Both the position numbers and the translations under genes were made by a program. From a bacterium (GTDB taxonomy: Bacteria; Planctomycetota; Planctomycetia; Pirellulales; Pirellulaceae), in NCBI GenBank assembly GCA_024743355.1, contig JANSWS010000005.1:1-55788 (forward strand): DNA of 55,788 nucleotides, in the 5' to 3' direction. Below, one piece after another: positions 4,439 through 7,797 of this stretch (positions are counted from its first letter, which is position 1; every line of letters starts with the position of its first letter). Below the pieces are notes generated by a model. It did no database searches. It was not told where the DNA came from and worked only from the letters and a program-made list of their open reading frames with translations.

Positions 4439-5884
4439 ATGCTACCCGCCCGTCCCCACTTGGATGAAGCCCGATCGAAAATTGTCGCTACGGTCGGTCC
4501 CGCATGTAGCGAGCTTGAGACGCTCATCAAGCTGGTGGAGCAGGGAGTGGATGTGTTTCGCATCAATGCTGCCCACGGAACGCAGGCGGATTTTGAGGCT
4601 TGGGTCTCCAAGATCCAGCAGGCGCGGGAAGCTACGGGCTTTCCCGTCGCCTGTTTGCTGGATCTGGCTGGACCTAAAATCCGACTCGGACAGCTGTTTC
4701 AAGATCCGTTGGAAGTCGATATCGGTGACGAACTGGAGTTCATCCGCGGAGACCAGGTCGGCGAGGCTCATCAGCTGTGCAGCAACTATCCCAAACTGAT
4801 CGATGAAGTTCAGGCCGATGATCGTATTATGCTCGCAGATGGCACCATTGGCTTGCGAGTGCTGGAGAAGCGAGCGGATAGTTTTCGCTGCCGAGTTCTG
4901 ACCGCCGGTACCATCCGAAGTCGCCAGGGTATCAATCTTCCTGGCGTCACCCTAAGCGTCTCGGCCATGCGTCCCAAAGATGTGGAATACGCGATGTGGG
5001 GAGCTCGGCAAGGAATCGACTTTATCAGCTTGAGTTTCGTGCGGAGCGCCCAGGATGTTCGTTCCTTGAAAGATCTTCTAACATCGCTGGAATCGAATGC
5101 TCTGGTGATAGCAAAAATTGAGAAACGCGAGGCGCTCGATTGTCTGGATGAAATTGTTGAGGCCGCGGATGGAATTATGGTGGCCCGAGGCGATTTGGGC
5201 GTCGAGATCGACGTGGCCAGGACGCCCGTCGAACAAAAACGGATCATTCAAGTCTGTCGTCAGAAGCTAAAGCCGGTCATCGTGGCCACTCAGATGCTGG
5301 AAAGCATGCACGAAAACCGACGTCCGACTCGTGCGGAAGCCAGCGACGTGGCCAACGCGATACTGGACGGCGCGGACGCTTGCATGTTGAGCGGAGAGAC
5401 CGCCATCGGAAACTATCCGGTGGAAGCCGTCGCCATGATGAATCGCATCATGAAGCACACCGAACGCATGTTGATTGATCAGCCCTCCGATAAAGTCGCC
5501 AAGGTCTTTGACCCGAGCGAGCCCATTACTTCGGCAGTGACCTACAGCGCAGCTAGCATTGCCCAGGCGATTGGCGCTAAACTGGTGGTTGTGGCCAGCA
5601 AGACCGGCGGGACTGCCTGGGTCAAATCCAAGCAGCGCAATTTCATTCCCACGCTCGGCATCAGCAGTATTCCGGAGACCCTGCGTCGGATGTGTCTTTT
5701 CTGGGGCATCATGCCTTTTTATGTCGAGCACTTCGATGACACCGCTCATCTGATAGAAGTCATTTCAAAATGGGGCAAGCAACACGAAATGTTGCACGGC
5801 GGTGACACCGTTGTTTTCGTTACAGGCACAGGTATCGTCGACAACGCCCACAACCAGATATTGGTCCATGAAGTTCAGGCGTGA
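4439..5884 (+). CDS. pyk: Pyruvate kinase
   Basis: Transfers phosphate from phosphoenolpyruvate to ADP in the last step of glycolysis. At 481 residues it has the usual bacterial length. Visible are KIVATVGPAC at the N-terminus, RINAAHG (commonly RxNxSHG; here the Ser position is Ala), LLDLAGPKIR, the catalytic Lys in IAKIEKREA, the metal-site motif MVARGDLGVEI and ATQMLESM. The C-terminal allosteric domain is present (TGTGIVDNA). The start is preceded only by a weak ribosome-binding sequence. The gene stands alone on the plus strand; the leuA leader begins only about 30 bases after its stop. Confidence 0.97.
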   Translation: MLPARPHLDEARSKIVATVGPACSELETLIKLVEQGVDVFRINAAHGTQADFEAWVSKIQQAREATGFPVACLLDLAGPKIRLGQLFQDPLEVDIGDELEFIRGDQVGEAHQLCSNYPKLIDEVQADDRIMLADGTIGLRVLEKRADSFRCRVLTAGTIRSRQGINLPGVTLSVSAMRPKDVEYAMWGARQGIDFISLSFVRSAQDVRSLKDLLTSLESNALVIAKIEKREALDCLDEIVEAADGIMVARGDLGVEIDVARTPVEQKRIIQVCRQKLKPVIVATQMLESMHENRRPTRAEASDVANAILDGADACMLSGETAIGNYPVEAVAMMNRIMKHTERMLIDQPSDKVAKVFDPSEPITSAVTYSAASIAQAIGAKLVVVASKTGGTAWVKSKQRNFIPTLGISSIPETLRRMCLFWGIMPFYVEHFDDTAHLIEVISKWGKQHEMLHGGDTVVFVTGTGIVDNAHNQILVHEVQA

Positions 5885-5917
5885 AGTTCAGCGTGAGGAA
5901 ACTTTTCAACTATTGAC

Positions 5918-5946
5918 TTGACGCTGCTGAAATCAAAGGCTACCGT
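5918..5946 (+). promoter_or_regulatory. Possible promoter of the leuA leader
   Basis: A TTGACG box (5918-5923) is followed after 17 bases by TACCGT (5941-5946). The -35 match is good and the -10 match poor (3 of 6). If used, transcription would start about at the ATG of the leader peptide, making it nearly leaderless; an upstream TTGACT at 5913 is an alternative. Tentative. Confidence 0.3.
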
Positions 5947-5953
5947 TACTGCT

Positions 5954-6037
5954 ATGTCGAACACGTATACAAGTCTGCCCGCTGTGATTTTGCTCAGCGA
6001 TCTCTTGTTGCTACCGCTCGCACTTGGCGAGCGTTAG
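5954..6037 (+). CDS. leuL: Leucine-rich leader peptide of leuA (27 aa)
   Basis: A 27-codon frame, ATG to TAG, starts 69 bases after the pyruvate kinase stop and 287 bases before leuA. Nine codons are leucine (residues 8, 13, 14, 17-20, 22, 24), with a run of four at 17-20 read by CTC, TTG, TTG and CTA; the core is ILLSDLLLLPLALGER. The peptide is presumably not functional itself. It would sense charged tRNA-Leu by ribosome stalling, as E. coli leuL does. Support comes from the matching alternative RNA stems at 6015-6106 and from the identity of the downstream gene. AAAGG lies about 14 bases before the ATG. No homology search was possible. Confidence 0.78.
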   Translation: MSNTYTSLPAVILLSDLLLLPLALGER

Positions 6038-6106
6038 GGGTTCGACTTACGCACATTCAGATCGGCAGATCCAAACCCCGGCGCTCGACGAGCTTCGGGG
6101 TTTTTT
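6015..6106 (+). promoter_or_regulatory. Leucine attenuator with alternative RNA stems
   Basis: Four segments can pair in mutually exclusive ways. Segment 1 (CGCTCGC, 6015-6021, inside the leader codons) pairs perfectly with 6027-6033 (GCGAGCG). The longer segment 2 (6028-6042) can instead pair with segment 3 (6074-6087): CGAGCG with CGCTCG and GGGGTT with AACCCC, two 6-bp helices around a small internal loop. Segment 3 otherwise pairs with segment 4 as the terminator. A ribosome stalled on Leu 17-20 (6002-6013) would cover segment 1 and free segment 2 for the antiterminator; one reaching the TAG at 6035 would cover segments 1 and 2 and let the terminator form. This predicts leuA induction on leucine starvation. 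Confidence 0.78.
6073..6106 (+). terminator. Intrinsic terminator of the leuA attenuator
   Basis: AAACCCCG (6073-6080) pairs with CGGGGTTT (6096-6103), and the inner GCTCG/CGAGC can extend the stem. The U-run is six bases (6101-6106). It lies between the leader peptide and leuA, and its left arm is shared with the antiterminator. Confidence 0.85.
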
Positions 6107-6240
6107 CGTATCAAATCACCTCGAAGCATGCCGTCGTGTCACCTGGCAGATGCCAATTTGAGCCCTAAAAATTGAGCCCAAACAATTGAGCACGATTTGC
6201 CAACTTTTTTACAGTGACCCTTAGAAAGCTTGGATGAACG

Positions 6241-7797
6241 ATGAACTCCAATGAATCTGTCAGGCAAATTCGGATCTTTGATACCACCTTGCGAGACGGT
6301 GAGCAGTCTCCTGGTGGGAGCATGAATTTTGCAGAGAAACTGGAGGTCGCTCAGGCTCTCACCGATCTGGGAGTCGACATCATTGAGGCGGGTTTTCCCA
6401 TCGCATCTCCAGGAGATTTCGAATCCGTTCGCGAGATCGCCAACACCATTCGTGGGGCCTCCATCTGCGGCTTGGCGCGATGCAACACGGCCGACATCGA
6501 GCGGGCCTGGGATGCCCTCAAGGGGGCCGAAAGACCGAGGATCCACGTGTTTCTGGCAACCAGCGCCATTCATCGAGAGTTCAAACTGCGGATGTCTCAA
6601 GACGAGATCGTGCAGCGAGCCGTGCAAGGAGTCGAGCTGGCCGTTGGCTTCTGCGATGACGTCGAGTTTTCTCCGGAGGATGCGGCTCGTACCGAGCATG
6701 ACTTCCTATGTCGCGTCGTGGAAGCGGCCATCAATGCCGGTGCGACAACGATCAATATTCCGGACACGGTGGGTTACGCGACACCCCGCGAAATGTTCGA
6801 GCGGATTGAATTGCTGTTGAATCGGGTCCCCAACATTGATCGTGCCGTGTTGAGCGTTCACTGTCACGACGACTTGGGGCTAGCGGTGGCAAATTCACTG
6901 GCAGCCGTGGAGGCTGGGTGTGGCCAGGTCGAATGCACCATCAATGGAATTGGCGAGCGGGCTGGAAACTGCGCGTTGGAAGAGGTCGTCATGGCCATGA
7001 AGACCCGACGCGAGTTTTATCACTGCGAAACGGGCATCCATAGCGAAAGACTGGTTCCCACCAGCCGCCTGGTAAGCAAGATTACCGGCTTGGAGGTGCA
7101 GCGGAACAAGTCGATCGTTGGACGCAATGCATTTGCCCATGAATCGGGTATTCACCAAGATGGGATGCTCAAGGAGAAGAGCACCTACGAAATCATGCGG
7201 CCGCAAGATGTGGGTTTTGCCAAGACAGACTTAGTGCTAGGTAAACACAGTGGACGGGCTGCTTTGGCGGATCGCGCGCGTGCCCTGGGCTTTCACATCA
7301 GCGGCGAGCAGCTGCAGTTGGTTTTTGAGAATTTCAAAGCCCTGGCGGATAAGAAGAAGGAAATCTACGACGGAGACATCGTAGCGCTCATCCAGCAGGA
7401 GATTTCAGGCAAGATTGATGAGGCTTGGAGTCTGGTTCGCTTCGAGGTAGCCAGCGGTTCCAACCGGCCGCCGAAAGTCAGCCTGACGCTGCGACACGAC
7501 GGGCAGGAGTTCACGCGGGAAGTTGAACAGGGCGATGGCCCGATCGACGCGGCTTTCTGGGCCGTGGAGGGCATCACGGGATATCAAGTCGTGTGCAAAG
7601 ACTACCGTGTCCGCAGCGCCACACTGGGGCGAGATGCCTTGGGCGAGGTGCAGTTGGAAGTCGAGCACAAGGGGAAGACCTTCAAGGGGCTGGGCGTGTC
7701 CACCGACACAGTGGAGGCAACCGTGCTGGCCATGCTGAATGCCATTAATCGGATCGCTTCCGCCGATTCGATGACGGAAGAGCCCAACGCGGTTTAA
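6241..7797 (+). CDS. leuA: 2-isopropylmalate synthase
   Basis: Condenses acetyl-CoA with 2-oxoisovalerate, the first committed step of leucine synthesis. The 518 residues hold the catalytic TIM barrel, with IFDTTLRDGEQSPGG near the N-terminus (metal and catalytic residues), HCHDDLGLAVANS (metal-binding His pair) and INGIGERAGN. Then come the linker with NAFAHESGIHQDGM and a C-terminal leucine-feedback domain from about residue 390 (GDGPIDAAFWAV, GVSTDTVEAT). Length and motifs fit the bacterial long-form enzyme. It is preceded by the attenuator at 5954-6106, so feedback inhibition and transcription attenuation may both act. No other leu genes lie in the window. A terminator follows at 7802-7829. 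Confidence 0.97.
   Translation: MNSNESVRQIRIFDTTLRDGEQSPGGSMNFAEKLEVAQALTDLGVDIIEAGFPIASPGDFESVREIANTIRGASICGLARCNTADIERAWDALKGAERPRIHVFLATSAIHREFKLRMSQDEIVQRAVQGVELAVGFCDDVEFSPEDAARTEHDFLCRVVEAAINAGATTINIPDTVGYATPREMFERIELLLNRVPNIDRAVLSVHCHDDLGLAVANSLAAVEAGCGQVECTINGIGERAGNCALEEVVMAMKTRREFYHCETGIHSERLVPTSRLVSKITGLEVQRNKSIVGRNAFAHESGIHQDGMLKEKSTYEIMRPQDVGFAKTDLVLGKHSGRAALADRARALGFHISGEQLQLVFENFKALADKKKEIYDGDIVALIQQEISGKIDEAWSLVRFEVASGSNRPPKVSLTLRHDGQEFTREVEQGDGPIDAAFWAVEGITGYQVVCKDYRVRSATLGRDALGEVQLEVEHKGKTFKGLGVSTDTVEATVLAMLNAINRIASADSMTEEPNAV

Follow-up and report, generated by a model that had tools for sequence, protein, structure and literature searches.

Introduction

Ribosome-mediated attenuation is an established kind of transcriptional control, and the leu operon leader of enterobacteria (leuL; Rfam Leu_leader) combines a Leu-coded peptide with the mutually exclusive RNA pairings 1:2, 2:3, and 3:4 and a terminator before leuA. 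The planctomycete locus analysed here shares the Leu-coded leader, the same pairing logic, and the terminator before leuA, but differs in its host and in having a segment 2 that spans the leader stop codon. Comparable elements are known from other phyla. Putative leaders precede leuA (four consecutive Leu) and the DAHP synthase gene aroF (Phe-Tyr-Phe) in Corynebacterium glutamicum, according to the accessible portions of two articles (PMC4046766, PMC11802643). The actinobacterial LEU element, an ORF with a run of Leu upstream of leuA, has such a Leu-rich ORF in common with the planctomycete element, but is described as a pseudoknot whose base stem consists of the Leu codons and the leuA Shine-Dalgarno sequence, and the accessible part of that article mentions no terminator (PMC1262725). 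In Staphylococcus aureus, a Leu-rich attenuator peptide is reported in excerpts to control branched-chain amino acid synthesis (PMC5794164); its leader is Leu-rich like the planctomycete one, but it belongs to the Firmicutes and the likeness is by description only. The Bacillus histidine leader before hisS/hisZ is, as far as the available text goes, an attenuator of the leader-peptide type from a phylum other than Proteobacteria and Actinobacteria (PMC2965389) that differs from the planctomycete element in phylum, amino acid, and gene.

The words planctomyc- or Pirellula are absent from the main text of the latter article, and leuA or leucine from the main text of the closest paper, on reinitiation (PMC4833913). 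A literature search of partial coverage retrieved no report of leader-peptide attenuation in planctomycetes, in agreement with the preliminary description of this DNA, which knew of no earlier account of ribosome-mediated leu attenuation in Planctomycetota.

Structure of the leuA upstream region

The window, i.e. the whole stretch of DNA that was analysed, comprises 55,788 nt of the forward strand of contig JANSWS010000005.1 from the Pirellulaceae genome GCA_024743355.1. Its features in and around the region upstream of leuA are:

4439..5884, + strand: pyruvate kinase gene, upstream neighbour, outside the system
5918..5923, + strand: -35-like box TTGACG from a consensus scan, its first base being the start of the region first noted
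5941..5946, + strand: -10-like box TACCGT from the same scan, separated from the -35-like box by 17 nt and from the leader ATG by 7 nt
5954..6037, + strand: leader peptide ORF, 27 codons with nine Leu, product MSNTYTSLPAVILLSDLLLLPLALGER followed by the stop
6002..6013, + strand: Leu codons 17-20 in a row (CTC TTG TTG CTA), main predicted stall site from the codon list and fold model
6015..6021, + strand: segment 1, 5' arm of the protector, pairing with 6027-6033
6027..6042, + strand: segment 2, with the TAG stop inside it; its partners are segment 3 (through 6028-6033 and 6037-6042) and segment 1 (through 6027-6033)
6074..6087, + strand: segment 3, 3' arm of the antiterminator and most of the left arm of the terminator, from folding and covariation
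6073..6106, + strand: intrinsic terminator (3:4)
6241..7797, + strand: leuA, 2-isopropylmalate synthase (NCBIfam TIGR00973 / NF002086 above cut-off), the regulated gene in the proposed model

The preliminary description had drawn a 27-codon frame with nine Leu codons, a 7-bp protector hairpin, an alternative pairing of 6028-6042 with 6074-6087, and a terminator with a six-base U-run whose left arm is shared with the antiterminator. Direct reading and the codon list reproduced the position and Leu count of the frame, which starts with ATG at 5954, stops with TAG at 6035-6037, and carries Leu at codons 8, 13, 14, 17-20, 22, and 24. Likewise, folding returned every helix in its place. The protector 6015-6021/6027-6033 folds at -11.8 kcal/mol (z -3.44 against codon shuffles), and the terminator at -18.9 kcal/mol with a stem at 6073-6103 and a U-run at 6101-6106. 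The 2:3 pairing joins 6037-6042 with 6074-6079 and 6028-6033 with 6082-6087, every pair being confirmed by folding save the outermost, C6028-G6087, which was read from the sequence, and the antiterminator 6029-6086 folds at -20.0 kcal/mol.

The element matches no Rfam family. At gathering thresholds, Rfam gave 0 matches over the window, and at E-values up to 10 it gave three weak matches over 5885-6240 (E 0.3 to 9.4) to unrelated families, the best being an sRNA. Neither the gathering-level nor the relaxed search returned Leu_leader, and the T-box riboswitch covariance model had no match in the window or over 5885-6240.

From this architecture we infer a transcription start, translation, stalling, readthrough, and a leucine response, which would act together as follows. 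RNA polymerase would start near 5954 and a ribosome would translate the leader peptide on the nascent RNA. When charged tRNA-Leu is ample, the ribosome would reach the TAG at 6035 and cover segment 2 (or be released, whereupon 1:2 would form); with segment 2 blocked, segments 3 and 4 would pair as the terminator 6073-6106 and transcription would end before leuA. During leucine shortage, the ribosome would stall at Leu codons 17-20 and cover segment 1 only, and the free segment 2 would capture segment 3 before segment 4 is made, such that the polymerase would continue into leuA.

The fold model upheld the claim that a stall at Leu 17-20 covers segment 1 only while a ribosome at the TAG blocks segment 2. 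With a ribosome modelled on Leu17-20 of the window RNA and transcription out to 6090-6098, the probability of 2:3 was 0.92-1.0; it fell to 0, and the terminator formed, when the A site held the stop codon; and with no ribosome on the RNA, 1:2 formed. The complete RNA at equilibrium is predicted to fold into the terminator (P 0.92-0.97) whatever the ribosome position. As the terminator is thus favoured in every state, antitermination must be kinetic and arise from ongoing transcription.

Recurrence before leuA in relatives

The LeuA search of GTDB contigs gave 585 confirmed loci, and the best 80 of these were all labelled as planctomycete or just as 'bacterium'; 79 of them together with the window provided 80 testable upstream regions. 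An ATG ORF, 10-50 codons long and encoding five or more Leu within eight codons, was present in 46 of these 80 regions compared to 0.4 in dinucleotide shuffles, the same criterion with other amino acids was satisfied in 0-3 of 80 regions, and the opposite strand yielded one. Elsewhere, ATG ORFs of this Leu density occurred in none of 242 window stretches and in six of 1960 stretches from the relatives' loci. A further 29 loci of the same family (30 of 55 places, one being the window) raised the number of usable loci to 107, with L110 (a near copy of L029) and L046 and L081 (short upstream DNA) left out before counting. In 77/107 loci, an intrinsic terminator follows a leader with four or more Leu in eight (five or more in 70 of these 77), and the conserved frame for which the preliminary description had proposed a search in relatives is therefore present. 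Leaders start with ATG in 73/77 and stop with TAG in 53/77 cases, with the terminator following 24-74 nt after the stop. A terminator was present in 78/107 loci, and all except one of these 78 also have the leader. Culturable relatives with the element include Rhodopirellula rubra (L008) and Neorhodopirellula pilleata (L004).

These numbers bear on translational control, in which the position of the ribosome would expose or hide the leuA start, or leuA would be translated by re-initiation. Reinitiation has indeed been proposed for leader genes near structural genes, and the accessible part of the article lists Planctomycetes as one of the groups concerned (PMC4833913). However, 203 nt separate the leader stop from leuA in the window, and a hairpin with a U-run is kept in 78/107 loci with its arm being the very part that pairs alternatively, which makes translational control very improbable compared to transcription attenuation.

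The element is absent from 30/107 loci, mostly by clade: on the LeuA tree, the leader trait needs eight changes compared to 26.4 for shuffled labels. Whole clades are without it (14 loci of one and seven of another containing Mariniblastus and Blastopirellula), and so are three loci closely related to the window (L005, L086, L088). Since the trait is missing from entire clades, its distribution suggests loss of the element. The loci without leader and terminator before leuA are L034, L039, L043, L047, L048, L062, and L075 in one clade and L050, L053, L056, L059-L061, L063, L065, L066, and L068-L072 in the other.

At single leader positions counted from the stop, Leu is encoded by all six codons, i.e. 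the amino acid is conserved rather than the RNA, and judged by this evolution the leader ORF appears to be translated. Moreover, the rare codon CTA accounts for 23.2% of the 538 Leu codons in leaders compared to 2.0% of 2762 in leuA genes, an enrichment that would be expected if rare codons sharpen the starvation signal. Alternative helices alone would suit any attenuator, including a leucine riboswitch or a leucine-responsive protein acting on leader RNA with an untranslated short ORF. Yet no Rfam family matches the leader region, Leu is kept at the amino acid level despite codon changes, and the leader amino acid changes with the pathway, to Ile at cimA and to Phe/Tyr/Trp at DAHP synthase (see below), leaving only a very slight probability for such ligand- or protein-based sensing.

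Covariation of the competing helices

Both helices show two-sided compensatory changes in relatives, for which the preliminary description had likewise proposed a test. It had named the lack of a conserved leader frame or of stem covariation in related genomes as refuting its reading, and neither is lacking here. Pairing tests were run on 52 loci, as 25 of the 77 leaders have no GG directly after the stop and were omitted, and the alignment holds 48 elements (the 52 minus L040, L077, L092, and L104 owing to poor fit, a long spacer, or a near copy). In the 3:4 stem, 90.2% of cells are paired, 10/12 pairs have two-sided changes, and the covariation score is 0.335 compared to 0.182 (sd 0.012) in shuffled alignments. 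For 2:3 in the register with four G, 75.0% are paired with two-sided changes at 9/11 pairs and a score of 0.226 compared to 0.130 (sd 0.013), and in the register with three G the values are 70.6%, 8/11, and 0.184 compared to 0.123 (sd 0.013). The three-G register ranks below the four-G register because the stop is followed by three G in some of the aligned leaders and by four in others. A single fixed 2:3 register for all loci was rejected, neither of the two fitting every row; they cannot be counted together, and their mixing lowers the 2:3 counts. Shifting the partner by 1-3 columns worsened every measure, for 3:4 and 2:3 alike. RNAalifold displays the terminator alone on this alignment, as is expected when two structures compete, and the stop codon lies inside segment 2 in all 48 aligned elements.

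Since kinship can inflate covariation counts, we added an alignment-free swap test. The non-coding part of segment 2 after the stop pairs with its own segment 3 at -10.49 kcal/mol (52 loci) compared to -8.72 kcal/mol (sd 0.30) for swapped partners, and none of 5000 swaps was as low as the own pairing, a comparison from which relatedness is not fully removed. A wider region, compared in the first 69 loci, agreed, with -19.5 for own and -15.9 (sd 0.37) for swapped partners. Clear in the window, the protector 1:2 is weak but significant in the family at large (77 loci; z relative to codon shuffles averaging -0.65; Wilcoxon P 1e-6). A plain terminator of the pyruvate kinase gene, which does end at 5884 on the same strand, combined with a coincidental Leu-rich ORF is the least probable reading and was rejected, because pyruvate kinase lies in the fetched flank of only 3/107 loci while leader and terminator are kept in 77/107, the terminator stands 24-74 nt from the leader stop, and segment 2 covaries with the terminator arm.

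The attenuator geometry is also reflected in the placement of Leu codons. Over the 52 loci, the fraction of segment 3 sequestered by upstream RNA in the fold model is 0.74 for stalls at Leu codons compared to 0.10 for a ribosome at the stop, climbing to 0.75 at codon -6 and remaining level thereafter. The frequency of Leu is 0.46-0.85 at codons -6 to -14 with a peak of 0.85 at -8, and 0.04-0.08 at codons -1 to -3. This modelled match supports an arrangement in which a stall would free segment 2 and a ribosome at the stop would block it.

Covariance-model searches of genomes

A covariance model built from the 48 aligned leuA elements was run on whole genomes. Within the order, 53/58 genomes had matches at E 0.01, a cut-off that also admits bare terminators, while 59/98 genomes of the class matched at 1e-5 and 22/148 of the phylum at 1e-6. 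In the 50 best-scoring genomes of the order and class searches (window excluded; some in or near the training set), the best match per genome preceded leuA on the same strand in 50/50 cases, and one cimA match in these genomes outscores three of the fifty best matches. Eleven of the 50 belong to a family of another order (f20) whose LeuA is 59-61% identical to that of the window, and in four other loci of this family LeuA is at most 67% identical to any of the 80 named loci. Among 20 further chosen matches from other families of the class, 17 were located before leuA, two before cimA, and one before a DAHP synthase gene. The phylum search contributed 11 examined loci: five before leuA, one of them (L345) outside the class; aromatic leaders before an aroFGH-type DAHP synthase, which differs from the type in Pirellulaceae, in two genomes of a family outside the class (L347 and L349, f55); and four (L348, L351-L353) without a match to LeuA, CimA, or the DAHP synthase of Pirellulaceae. 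The match at L348 holds a short frame, MDAITASFFYGYTVAERM, and the next long frame is, judged by its start, no DAHP synthase. At L368, before a DAHP synthase gene, an aromatic-rich ORF was not found.

Among 20 loci that are second copies in further genomes of this order, a cimA-like gene came next in ten and a DAHP-synthase-like gene in five, and two were not leaders; the genes were recognised by eye, with families confirmed for L153, L155, and L167. No leader ORF was found at L154, one of the ten with a cimA-like gene next. L166 and L171 were rejected as attenuators, their Cys-rich short frames directly before strong terminators probably being the 3' ends of small Cys-rich protein genes. Several candidates from the genome of the window were discarded as well: L113, L115-L117, and L122 are partial model matches to terminators, L119 corresponds to the window terminator read on the opposite strand, and L120 overlaps a tRNA-Glu gene.

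Leaders before other pathway genes

The genome of the window contains two more leaders of this kind, which are its next full-length model matches after the leuA leader. One (L114:1464-1610, contig C291) is a Phe/Tyr-rich leader without Trp, MKTRPYYFYFCGFRPAFTSGAVKGM, before DAHP synthase, with an antiterminator and a terminator built like the leuA attenuator. An Ile-rich leader, MKFTQLICRSIAIIGRHSGGAR, with a terminator lies before citramalate synthase (L118, minus strand, 1501-1603, contig C727), preceded by a perfect TTGACA -35 box and by a -10 box at 6 nt from its ATG. The genome also encodes a second DAHP synthase (51% identical; G000:C767:10712-11704).

Two later locus sets took in 30 of 66 and 30 of 41 places. 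Before DAHP synthase, 26 of 30 family loci combine a terminator with a leader in which four or more of ten codons encode Phe/Tyr/Trp, and an ATG ORF with at least five aromatic residues in ten occurs in 22/30 compared to 0.6 in shuffles, the seven control amino acid sets giving 0-1. Segment 2 pairs with its own segment 3 at -20.6 compared to -17.7 (sd 0.57) for swapped partners, with 0/5000 swaps reaching this value. At one DAHP synthase locus (L183), the leader MIYTHDFYSLRQFYFASGQFYFASGQTV has an apparent tandem duplication of its block of aromatic codons. Leaders before cimA are weaker than those of leuA and DAHP synthase: at least three Ile in eight codons were found in 14 of 30 loci compared to 1.3 expected, an Ile-bearing leader with a terminator is present in 15/30 by a loose criterion, 7/30 regions are without terminator, and some leaders are doubtful (such as L205, L208, and L212, whose terminators stand 72-80 nt beyond the stop). 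No precedent for an Ile leader at citramalate synthase was found in the literature search.

The C. glutamicum leaders of leuA, aroF (AroR), and trp resemble this set in having a Leu leader at leuA and an aromatic leader at DAHP synthase. The planctomycetes differ in that 21/26 DAHP synthase leaders combine Phe, Tyr, and Trp in one leader, in the additional Ile leader at cimA, and, compared to the trp leader, in that none with a terminator was found before trpE (30 loci). Likewise, no cognate-rich leader was found before hisG, ilvB, or trpE (30 loci each); a terminator lay within 1000 nt upstream in 14 of these 90 loci, at least one of which (L259) starts at a contig end with no upstream DNA, and five ATG ORFs stood at the right distance. 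Because these genes need not be first in their operon, attenuation may act elsewhere in those pathways.

Promoter-like sites before the leaders

A scan for TTGACA-like and TANNNT boxes with a 16-18-nt spacer within 90 nt before the leader located promoter-like sites in 47/77 leuA loci compared to 3.3 in shuffles. Of the 47, 17 have the -10 box 6-9 nt from the start of the leader (7 nt in the window), one has it at 1 nt, and the other 29 at 20-61 nt. The remaining loci with 6-9-nt spacing are L004, L006-L012, L020, L041, L080, L083, L089-L091, and L096. Transcription starts approximately 7 nt after a -10 box, which would be at or near the A of the ATG. The leader mRNA of the window, and those with the same 6-9-nt spacing, may therefore be leaderless, going by the position of the boxes. 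A Shine-Dalgarno-like word precedes only 17/77 leuA leaders. Promoter-like sites were also present before 11/15 cimA leaders (0.45 expected) at distances of 6-62 nt, but before none of the 26 DAHP synthase leaders (1.15 expected) in the same scan, such that a leaderless transcript is unsupported there.

Discussion

Taken as a whole, comparative sequence evidence and fold modelling indicate that the element is very probably a ribosome-mediated transcription attenuator of leuA, which is probably switched on when leucine runs short. It appears reasonably likely, with less confidence than for leuA itself, that Planctomycetota possess a ribosome-mediated attenuator network on entry synthases of three pathways (Leu/leuA, Ile/citramalate synthase, and Phe/Tyr/Trp/DAHP synthase), with leaderless leuA leader mRNAs in some of the Pirellulaceae. 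Leader-peptide attenuation, described in the literature consulted for Proteobacteria, Actinobacteria, and some Firmicutes, would thereby be extended to Planctomycetota.

A spatial separation of transcription and translation has been suggested for some planctomycetes, as noted in the accessible part of Boedeker et al. 2017 (PMC5394234), who themselves argue there for a Gram-negative cell plan of the ordinary kind. A switch of this kind needs a ribosome behind the polymerase on nascent RNA, and its conservation would thus imply coupled transcription and translation in its carriers, contrary to such a separation. The element might therefore serve as a simple reporter of coupling in the organisms bearing it. 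Further, in the three-pathway set the amino acid of the leader would name the regulated pathway, which may aid annotation in a poorly studied phylum.
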